DNA of 64,000 bases, taken from assembly GCF_900178005.1 (NCBI RefSeq), contig NZ_FXBS01000003.1, positions 124,001-188,000 of the forward strand. The letters are read 5' to 3'. Position numbers and translations under genes: made by a program. Positions 23,275-38,567 of this stretch are shown in pieces (the first letter of the stretch is position 1; each line of letters begins with the position of its first letter). The stretch is from Tuberibacillus sp. Marseille-P3662 (lineage in GTDB: Bacteria > Bacillota > Bacilli > Bacillales > Sporolactobacillaceae). Under the pieces are notes generated by a model. That model made no database searches, was not told the origin of the DNA, and was given only the letters and a program-made list of their open reading frames with translations.

Positions 23275-23388
23275 CAAATCCTCCTCTATTCTTTTATCAA
23301 TTATAACGTATTATCAGACTATTTTAAAATTTTGAGATTGGCCTATTTGAATCATAATTAAGTTTATGGTAGTTTGATAATAGAATAA

Positions 23389-23486
23389 GCACTGGGGGAG
23401 TCGGAAATGGCCGGCTGAGAGTGGGACCCGAAGAAGTCTCTAACCCTTTTACCTGATCTGGTTCACACCAGCGGAGGGAAGTCACG
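23389..23486 (+). promoter_or_regulatory. TPP riboswitch (THI element)
   Basis: The conserved aptamer parts are in order: GGGGGAGTC at the 5' side, CTGAGAGTGGGACCC, ACCTGATCTGGTTC then ACCAGCGGAGGGAAGTC at the 3' side. These are the thi-box pyrimidine- and pyrophosphate-sensor helices. Thiamine pyrophosphate binding would favour the terminator just downstream and shut off thiD-thiM-thiE. Confidence 0.97.
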
Positions 23487-23510
23487 TATAAGTATAGCTA
23501 TGACTTTCTG

Positions 23511-34434: not shown

Positions 34435-34603
34435 TACACTTCGCTTTCCGCGGGCGACCAGTGAGCCCCCTCATGCCCACAGGATGTGGGTAGGATCAGC
34501 GTTGTCACAGGAGGTGACGAATTTAGCTGATCATCCTTAATGCGTACTCTCTGTGTTCTGCGGGGCCTCACTTTGGCCGCTGTTTCCCGCAGGAGTCTAC
34601 GTG
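34435..34603. repeat. Dispersed Bacillus-type hairpin repeat, copy 1
   Basis: This non-coding element begins TACACTTCGCTTTCCGCGGG and ends CCCGCAGGAGTCTACGTG. Inner pairs include GGATCAGC with GCTGATC and GTCAC with GTGAC. Its core GTGAGCC-CCTCATGCCCACA and TGTGGGTAGGATCAGCGTTG recurs at 48261-48420. Such CTTCGCTTTCCGCGGG elements are widespread between genes in bacilli. It fills most of the 364-base gap before the next gene. Confidence 0.8.
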
Positions 34604-36258: not shown

Positions 36259-36267
36259 CGGTTTGGG

Positions 36268-36313
36268 GTCAGGCCCCCACTGCTTTAACGCGGTGGGGGC
36301 CTGACCCCATTTA
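36268..36313 (+). terminator. Long GC-rich hairpin after the glutamate synthase-like gene
   Basis: TGGGGTCAGGCCCCCACTG pairs with a near-complete complement ending GGGGGCCTGACCCCA, followed by TTTAT. It starts within 15 bases of the stop. Confidence 0.85.
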
Positions 36314-36402: not shown

Positions 36403-36849
36403 GGGACCGAATTATTACATAACAGGACGTTTTTATTAAAATGCAGGACATCCGCGGGACAGCACACTTCTTATGGGACAAGTACGTTCCAGAAATACTC
36501 ATTTATGGGACAGAAAATTCACATAACGGGACGCTTTTATTAAAATACGGGACATCCACGGGACAGCGCACTTCTTATGGGACAAGTACGTTCCAGAAAT
36601 ACTCATTTATGGGATAGAAAATTCACATAACGGGACGCTTTTATTAAAATACGTGACATCCGCGGGACAGCGCACCTCTTATGGGACAAGTACGTTCCAG
36701 CATGACTCATTTACGGGACCGAAATATTACATTACAGGACGTTTTTATTAAAATGCGGGACATCCGCGGGACAGCGTACCTCTTATGGGACAAGTACGTT
36801 CCAGAAATACTCATTTACGGGACAGAAAATTCACATAACGGGATGCTTT
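36403..36849 (+). repeat. 104-bp tandem array, left part (units 1-4 and start of unit 5)
   Basis: Units of exactly 104 bp. Corresponding TTATGGGACAAGTACGTTCC blocks start at about 36471, 36575, 36679 and 36783. Each unit carries five GGGAC-type pentamers on the same strand at intervals 21, 21, 11, 19, 32. Starts are 36403, 36424, 36445, 36456, 36475; 36507, 36528, 36549, 36560, 36579; 36611, 36632, 36653, 36664, 36683; 36715, 36736, 36757, 36768, 36787; 36819, 36840. A few sites are AGGAC, GTGAC or GGGAT. A period of 104 is not a multiple of three, so the array is not a coding repeat. It is cut by the IS at 36850. Confidence 0.95.
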
Positions 36850-36928
36850 AGAGTTAGTCTAAAAAGTGGACACGCTACAGAGAGAATTTTTACAATGAAA
36901 TTATCAATCGAATGGAGCGTGTCTAAAG

Positions 36929-37222
36929 ATGGGAAAACATTATGATGACGAATTCAAGGAATATGTTGCCAAAATGGTTGTGGATGAAGGCAAAAAAGCG
37001 GCGGAAGTATCTAGAGAAATGGATCTCCCTTATAAAACGATGACGCGTTGGGTCCGTGATTATCGGAAGAAAAAACAGTTGAAAGCCGAGGAATTGGACT
37101 ATATCACCCCTAGTGAGCACAAGAAACGGGAAAAGGAATTGCTGGATCAAATTAAGGAATTGAAAGAGGAGAACGAAATCGTAAAAAAGGCGGCGCACAT
37201 CTTCATGAAAAACCAGAAATAA
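36929..37222 (+). CDS. IS3-family transposase OrfA
   Basis: This 97-residue DNA-binding subunit has an N-terminal helix-turn-helix (YDDEFKEYVAKMVVDEGKKA, SREMDLPYKTMTRWVRDY). A C-terminal leucine-zipper-like coiled coil (about 65-90, KREKELLDQIKELKEENEIV) mediates oligomerisation. The end of the gene holds the slippery heptamer A-AAA-AAG at 37183-37189 in the right phase for a -1 shift into orfB, which would give the OrfAB transposase. GGAG lies about 12 bases upstream of ATG. Confidence 0.95.
   Translation: MGKHYDDEFKEYVAKMVVDEGKKAAEVSREMDLPYKTMTRWVRDYRKKKQLKAEELDYITPSEHKKREKELLDQIKELKEENEIVKKAAHIFMKNQK
37183..37189 (+). other. Programmed -1 frameshift site (A AAA AAG)
   Basis: The zero frame reads GTA-AAA-AAG. 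A -1 slip continues in the orfB frame as KKGGAHLHEKPEIIYAFMNE with no stop. The same heptamer drives OrfAB synthesis in IS911-type elements. Confidence 0.82.
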
Positions 37223-37233
37223 TTTACGCTTTC

Positions 37234-38115
37234 ATGAATGAACATCGCCACGAGTTTCGAGTCGTGAAGATGTGCCAAGTTCTAGAAGTCTCGAAAAGTG
37301 GCTTTTATAAATGGCTTAAAATGCGACCCCATCAAAGTGATTGTGAAAAAGAAAAGGAACGTTTGAAGGGTGTCATTTGTCGACTTTTCTATGAGTATCG
37401 TGAAACGTATGGAAGCCCACGAATCACCCATGAACTTCGAAAACAAGACATTCATGTTTCGGAGAAAACAGTGGGGAGATATATGAGAGAAAGGGGGCTC
37501 CGTGCGGTTCCAGAAAAACGTTTTGTGACAACAACAGACTCGAATCACAGTCATCCCATTTATCCAAATTTATTGAATCGTCATTTCAATCCAGAACAGC
37601 CTGACCGTGCATGGGTGACCGATATCACTTATGTGTGGACATTAGAAGGATGGTTATATTTAGCTAGTGTGATGGATTTATATTCGCGTAAAATCATTGG
37701 GTGGCATATTGATAAAAGCTTGTCCAAAGCGTTGGTTTTAAAGGCGCTTAACCGAGCCATCCGTTTGAGACATCCTTCAGACAAGCTCATTCATCATTCG
37801 GACCGTGGCAGTCAGTACGCATCCAAAGAATATATTGAGTGCCTAAATGCACACAATATTCAAATCAGTATGAGCCGGCGTGGCAACTGTTATGACAACG
37901 CATGCATTGAATCCTTTCATGCGACCATTAAGAAAGACCGTATTTATCGTCGTCAATATAGAAGTCGTGAAGAAGCCAAAAAAGACATCTGGGACTATAT
38001 CATGAGCTTTTATAATGAGAGAAGAAGTCATTCAACGCTCGGCTATGTCTCACCCAATCAATATGAACGGGCTTATTGGGCATTGACGGAGCGAAAGCAG
38101 GACAAAACAGCCTAA
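37234..38115 (+). CDS. IS3-family transposase OrfB (DDE integrase core)
   Basis: This 293-residue integrase-fold protein begins with an HTH_21-like region (CQVLEVSKSGFYKWL, YGSPRITHELRK). The rve core has catalytic residues D in VTDITYVWT, D in HHSDRGSQYAS and E in NACIESFHATIKKD, matching the DDE arrangement with 35-residue D-E spacing of the family. It is most likely made as an OrfAB fusion by -1 frameshifting; the frame is open upstream past 37183. It is intact, so the element may still be active. Confidence 0.96.
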   Translation: MNEHRHEFRVVKMCQVLEVSKSGFYKWLKMRPHQSDCEKEKERLKGVICRLFYEYRETYGSPRITHELRKQDIHVSEKTVGRYMRERGLRAVPEKRFVTTTDSNHSHPIYPNLLNRHFNPEQPDRAWVTDITYVWTLEGWLYLASVMDLYSRKIIGWHIDKSLSKALVLKALNRAIRLRHPSDKLIHHSDRGSQYASKEYIECLNAHNIQISMSRRGNCYDNACIESFHATIKKDRIYRRQYRSREEAKKDIWDYIMSFYNERRSHSTLGYVSPNQYERAYWALTERKQDKTA

Positions 38116-38400
38116 ATACAACCAGCAACTTTATTTGGAGTGGCGGGCGTGATAGCCTCGACGGCGAGCCAATCTTTTATAATAGCTGGCTCCTTGGCCT
38201 GGAACTCACGCCCGTAGAGGCTCCATGTCAAGTTGCGACTATAGGCCGTGTTCCCTTTGATTCAAATACCCCTTACTCGACTCATGAGCTTAATTATTGC
38301 GTGTTGATTCATTTCGGTTCTCGTTTAAAGGGAAGACCAATGCCTAACTTAACGTATGGATTAAAAGTTTTTTCGTGAAAGTTTGTCCACTTTATTGACA
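38116..38400 (+). other. Non-coding, potentially structured tail of the IS
   Basis: The 285 bases after orfB contain no credible gene. They contain GGGCGTGA (38145-38152) complementary to TCACGCCC (38206-38213), and AGCCTC (38154-38159) complementary to GAGGCT (38217-38222). GAGCCA (38166-38171) is complementary to TGGCTC (38187-38192). The first two pairs are interleaved, a pseudoknot-like layout. A short frame overlapping the orfB end has no ribosome binding site. Confidence 0.55.
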
Positions 38401-38408
38401 GAAGTCCA

Positions 38409-38567
38409 GCTTTTATTAAAATACGTGACATCCGCGGGACAGCGTACCTTTTATGGGACAAGTACGTTCCAGCATGACTCATTTACGGGACAGAAAATTC
38501 ACATAACGGGACGCTTTTATTGAAATACGGGACATCCACGGGACAACGCGCCTACAACCTATGGGAT
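38409..38567 (+). repeat. 104-bp tandem array, right part (end of unit 5 and unit 6)
   Basis: This continues the array after the IS. GGGAC-type sites start at 38425, 38436, 38455, then 38487, 38508, 38529, 38540 and a degenerate last one at 38563 (spacing 23 instead of 19). Together with the left part this makes six units and 30 sites. Confidence 0.93.

Follow-up and report, generated by a model that had tools for sequence, protein, structure and literature searches.

The stretch of DNA analysed here (the window; 64,000 nucleotides, G000:C3:124001-188000) contains a tandem array of short, G-rich sites at fixed spacing at 36403-38567, and the locus raises the question of what reads these sites and what keeps their spacing. 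The genome to which it belongs (G000; 3.68 Mb in six contigs) is 99.96% complete, and its Bacillaceae-1 RNA, TPP riboswitch and gene content point to a bacterium of the Bacillales type. The first-pass annotation of this DNA had described five same-strand GGGAC-type sites per unit at offsets 0, 21, 42, 53 and 72, repeating at 104 bp, about 30 sites in total. This layout is exact in all of the six units once an insertion is spliced out; there are 30 sites, 22 of which are exact GGGAC, the others appearing as AGGAC, GTGAC or GGGAT, with one site lost. The described span is indeed an array, but the insertion within it, an IS3-family element inside unit 5, had gone unnamed (Table 1). The placing of the sites on one face of the DNA is also confirmed: the vector strength is 0.957 at 10.36 bp (with a sixth site at +83 included), a value that is reached by 0.055% of random site sets. 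Another GGGAC array of this genome (L080, G000:C5:453590-455470) is likewise interrupted by an IS3-family element, apparently the one of the window array but oppositely oriented.

Table 1. Features of the window in and around the array (positions are those of the window; P and Q are the site labels used in the text).
Feature	Position	Strand	Remarks
Left array part	36403..36849	+	Units 1-4 and first two sites of unit 5
Right array part	38410..38558	+	Remainder of unit 5 and unit 6
Sites of right part	38425, 38436, 38455, 38487, 38508, 38529, 38540	+	
Site P with degenerate sixth site Q	36475..36490	+	GGGACAAGTACGTTCC, imperfect palindrome; pair recurs at 36579, 36683, 36787, 38455
IS3-family insertion sequence	36850..38409	+	1,560 bp, inside unit 5
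Target duplications	36846-36849 and 38410-38413 (second copy)		CTTT
IS OrfA	36929..37222	+	HTH_Tnp_1, PF01527
IS OrfB	37234..38115	+	rve integrase core, HTH_21
Hairpin	36265-36308		GGGGTCAGGCCCCCAC...GTGGGGGCCTGACCCC, between preceding gene and array
Bacillaceae-1 RNA	34476-34542		Rfam match
TPP riboswitch	23384-23496		Rfam match

The spacing of the five-site unit as first delimited holds, but its start and content do not. Genome-wide, the arrays usually start at site P (offset 72) and end after site D (offset 53), from which the natural unit follows as P-11-Q-21-A-21-B-21-C-11-D, then a 19-bp link. Its sixth site, Q, at +83, is usually degenerate, being GTTCC in 12 of the 14 array consensi and GGGAC in array L084. 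The five-site spacing pattern is present at 60 places of the genome and the reversed pattern at none, which shows that the spacing of the window array is not due to chance. When BLAST, the spacing pattern and a unit profile (26 units, aligned without gaps over 104 bp) are used together, about 70 (72) matches to the 104-bp unit are found at 18 loci on contigs C2-C6, and the distance from unit to unit is 104 bp in 46 of 47 cases and 105 bp in one. Conservation over the 14 array consensi is 97.6% for the five GGGACA words and 74.6% for the spacers, whose mean pairwise identity is 62%. The arrays are intergenic, occurring in either orientation in convergent, divergent and co-directional gene gaps, and their neighbours are unrelated, mostly housekeeping-type genes.

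The 104-bp unit has no match in 25 other genomes of the family, and its exact spacing pattern is found nowhere else in the genome contigs searched; one match to a looser pattern, in Bordetella, is irregularly spaced and looks like chance in GC-rich DNA. The search of the order was sampled, weak unit matches in G098 and G366 having prompted larger fetches, and coding-region and palindromic GGGACA matches were excluded. Four other genomes of the order (G098, G366, G114 and G407) have GGGACA at 21-bp steps, with spacers that are unrelated to those of the unit described above. The steps are 21,21,21,20,21 in G098 and 21,21,21,21,24 in G366, and the array of G114 has nine sites. In G407 the elements consist of six TATGGGACA sites each, at mostly exact 21-bp steps and with GGGACAAAC at the end; a strict three-site pattern has 54 matches there and the reversed pattern 0. 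These elements repeat at 226, 290 or 269 bp. Freely varying unit lengths, which the first-pass annotation regarded as speaking against helical phasing, are therefore literally present in G407, yet the phasing survives them, because within each element the steps between the six sites are 21 bp, exactly or nearly so. Since GGGACA is kept at 21 bp between unrelated spacers, it is the phased motif that is conserved, not the 104-bp unit, in agreement with the earlier observation that the spacing is fixed while the intervening sequence varies. A survey of the class gave no convincing GGGACA phased array outside the order.

The arrays of G366 and G407 are found at orthologous places (after a kipA homolog, between ftsE and cccB, and at two more), where the sites are kept or partly decayed and the spacers have diverged. 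At one more orthologous place, GATTTGCGTC arrays in G366 (L275/L276) correspond to GGGACA six-site elements in the congener G407 (L210:1481-2040), apparently by motif replacement at this locus. YitT-type genes lie near arrays in five genomes, which is taken as neighbourhood synteny. Several Bacillales genomes are also rich in a different, palindromic repeat, GGGACA-N2-3-GGGGACAGGTTCnnTGTCCC (for example L153 of G366 and L154 of G114), which looks like a short hairpin repeat and perhaps has nothing to do with the phased arrays.

A candidate for the protein partner is found at L223 of the own genome, where two GGGACA arrays, both on the same strand and antisense to the gene, bracket a gene (G000:C4:64099-65073) for a protein of 325 aa, in which NERD, the nuclease-related domain of a little-studied family, is the sole domain found (PF08378, 65.8 bits, gathering cut-off 22.1). 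A NERD gene of G098, which belongs to another family, is likewise bracketed by GGGACA arrays, again antisense. With the own NERD protein as query, 2-9 matches are obtained in each of 16 genomes tested, and a phased 20-21-bp array is present within 1 kb of 36 of the 43 NERD loci examined in these genomes, the scan giving none for the other seven. Among control genes, 25/433 have a non-GGGACA phased array (Fisher p 7e-30 versus the NERD loci), several of these 25 reflecting leftover words of GGGACA arrays, or arrays with NERD motifs, and shuffled sequence gives none; the own NERD locus was a starting point of this link and is not an independent test of it. When chains of any 6-mer are scanned, 55 arrays are found at 19-22 bp and 0-1 in each other spacing class from 7 to 34 bp; the sample was partly picked via arrays and NERD genes, so that the contrast between the spacing classes is what counts.

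Nearly all close NERD homologs have next to their gene an array in which a word of 6-9 bp recurs every 20-21 bp, and this word is usually gene-specific, changing between NERD paralogs of one genome. In the clear cases, the word of arrays elsewhere in a genome matches that of one of its NERD genes. The flanking words include GACGACCGAT (19 sites), TGTCCGATA (six sites, repeatedly), CGCAAT (on both sides), TTTATGTGCC (23 sites), CCGGAAAGTAA (17 sites) and GACGCAAA (15 sites, with a 20-bp step). No array is seen alongside two distant NERD homologs (<50 bits). The flanking arrays of loci L236 and L241 look inverted. Decayed NERD genes are also seen (L264 at G098:C1:765010, G114:C61:85038 and on G294:C16), of which L264 keeps phased AGTAAA arrays on both sides.

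The window array is probably a multi-site platform on which the NERD/zinc-ribbon/HTH-like protein encoded at L223 of the same genome docks, one of about 18 such platforms dispersed in intergenic DNA. This retains from the first-pass annotation the non-coding, multi-site platform for a cooperatively binding protein; the roles in partition, condensin loading or replication that had been named with it are dropped, as nothing links the arrays to them. Each NERD protein would read a 6-8-bp word via its C-terminal HTH-like region, and several protein copies would be aligned along a single face of the helix, one or two turns apart; elements of six sites are common. From the NERD locus, the arrays would reach intergenic DNA in the vicinity, grow by tandem expansion and diverge, with word and spacing maintained by selection. 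That the arrays disperse from the NERD locus is suggested by their regional clustering: of the 17 other loci of the own genome, six fall in the initial 242 kb of C4, where the NERD locus lies (simulated p 0.0006), and the arrays found genome-wide in G098 are all at C1:579-702 kb, a segment that includes its NERD gene at 649 kb.

The residues G42, G45, E46, D79, K94, Q108 and C236/C239/C252/C255 of the NERD protein are invariant in 40/40 homologs, and from this pattern E46/D79/K94 and the four cysteines are predicted to form a PD-(D/E)XK-like core and a zinc ribbon. The last 60 residues, which by eye contain the pattern ITNxxCRxFLxLxSRxxAxRLL, read like a helix-turn-helix; this region is not recognised by Pfam and PDB profile searches. 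Motif similarity and protein similarity correlate over all NERD pairs (p 0.0005). For pairs below 50% identity, motif similarity tracks the putative recognition helix (r 0.133, p 0.011), a weak correlation that would be lost on correction for six segments and is to be read as suggestive, and no correlation with the motif is found for the NERD domain, the ribbon and the middle part (p 0.3-0.8). Carriage by plasmids, phages or viruses was considered and rejected: plasmids and phages have no array match, and no NERD relative is found in phages or viral contigs, with one weak match in plasmids. A comparison with the curated defence proteins of PADLOC gives weak similarity of the NERD domain to PglW, nothing more.

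It is also conceivable, but unlikely, that the arrays serve a nucleoid- or domain-organising protein that has no relation to NERD, with NERD genes just tending to sit near them. Intergenic arrays in either orientation beside unrelated housekeeping genes, and their regional clustering, would fit such a protein, but an array motif that is gene-specific and differs between the NERD paralogs of one genome would not, nor does an association of p about 7e-30. Dispersed arrays moreover match NERD motifs of the same genome: among 34 NERD motifs, the best for the own TGAGCG array L017 (TTGAGCGCTCC, 27 sites) is that of own NERD L253, for two GACGCA arrays of G366 that of NERD L250, for the ATCGGT array of G095 that of NERD L224, and for the own GGGACA arrays that of own NERD L223. 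The match of the non-GGGACA array L154 of G114 is ambiguous. In favour of the organising protein, the G407 arrays exist without a matching NERD gene; GGGACA arrays are present in G407 and G366, and no NERD gene flanked by GGGACA is found in either. The NERD motif closest to their array word is TGTCCG, from genes in the genus mates G385 and G347, which makes it likely that the NERD partners have been lost or changed.

Somewhat less probable again is that the arrays are an autoregulatory operator of the NERD gene, the dispersed copies being its regulon. At many loci an upstream array precedes the NERD start codon by about 60-250 bp, as expected for an operator; others are often directly downstream of the gene, dispersed arrays are found also in convergent gaps without a promoter, and the genes beside them have no common function. 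A transcribed RNA element of the sponge-RNA kind, whose GGGAC (GGA) motifs would be bound by a CsrA-like protein, is very improbable. The GGA words are repeated on a single strand, but there is no consensus structure (one 5-pair helix, no covariation, z-scores 0.6 to -1.8), the orientation of the arrays is independent of the neighbouring genes, a spacing by multiples of the helical repeat of DNA would be unexplained in an RNA, and GGA is missing from other NERD motifs. An inverted repeat of 7 pairs between P and D was also considered and rejected: it pairs in 84% of cells with covariation in three pairs alone, and related rows can beat shuffles without any structure. A neutral tandem repeat spread by homologous recombination, which would account for the concerted evolution of nearly identical units in one array and for the one 105-bp slip, is hardly credible, since comparisons within and between genomes show conserved motifs and spacing next to diverging spacers.

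The docking-platform reading can be extended, tentatively, to a more active role: NERD/zinc/HTH-like paralogs, of which a Bacillales genome has several, each with its own word, may actively copy phased six-site arrays into the intergenic DNA around their gene and assemble on them as a one-faced filament, with turnover of the motif accompanying changes of the recognition helix; this would be a new class of bacterial nuclease-repeat system. No description of NERD-associated arrays was found in the open-access literature searched, and the data suggest that phased arrays and NERD genes form a hitherto undescribed system in which a protein has docking sites scattered over the genome. The dozens of predicted protein-motif pairs are a direct, testable handle on it and would supply a natural set of DNA-recognition specificities. 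Such a system would account for many unannotated intergenic repeats in Bacillales, and it would be the second enzyme-plus-dispersed-repeat system beside REP/RAYT, to which it is unrelated.

Several known systems have features in common with the arrays. The MraZ operator consists of short, G-rich, same-strand direct repeats near one-turn spacing, and the GGGACA arrays resemble it in having such words at helical spacing; unlike the MraZ operator, they are dispersed. MraZ itself was considered as the array binder and rejected, the words upstream of mraZ in the own genome being of the GTGGTG/GTGGGG type, not GGGACA. Plasmid iterons, with about six direct repeats at 21-22 bp, are similar in number and step, but the arrays are chromosomal, at many loci, and no Rep gene or origin is seen nearby. 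The intergenic TAACTGA direct repeats, for which the author suggests translational regulation, are also dispersed direct repeats of one short word; they differ in word and lineages, and neither phasing nor a partner gene is reported in the available portion of that paper (PMC4679880). The S. aureus protein SmdA, a NERD-domain membrane protein of cell division without several of the conserved NERD residues, shares the NERD domain with the array-flanked proteins, and repeats are not mentioned for it in the portion of its description at hand (PMC9040797).

The closest comparison is with the REP/RAYT 'REPtrons', in which the RAYT (TnpA-REP) gene is flanked by its own REP/BIME repeats, the cognate repeats are dispersed in intergenic DNA, in some cases with the repeats concentrated near the gene, and the repeat words differ between systems; the RAYT gene is not multiplied in the manner of an insertion sequence (PMC2817692, PMC8266576). 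The NERD arrays are alike in that the gene of a putative enzyme is flanked by its cognate repeats, which are also dispersed extragenically. The parts are different. The NERD enzyme would have a PD-(D/E)XK-like E-D-K core, whereas RAYT is an HUH Y1 transposase; the words of the NERD arrays are non-palindromic at 20-21 bp, whereas REPs are hairpins with a GTAG foot; and the two arrays at L223 have the same orientation, unlike the inverted flanks of REP/RAYT, which L236 and L241 seem to share. The NERD-array system is thus best read as being organised like REP/RAYT and built of unrelated parts.
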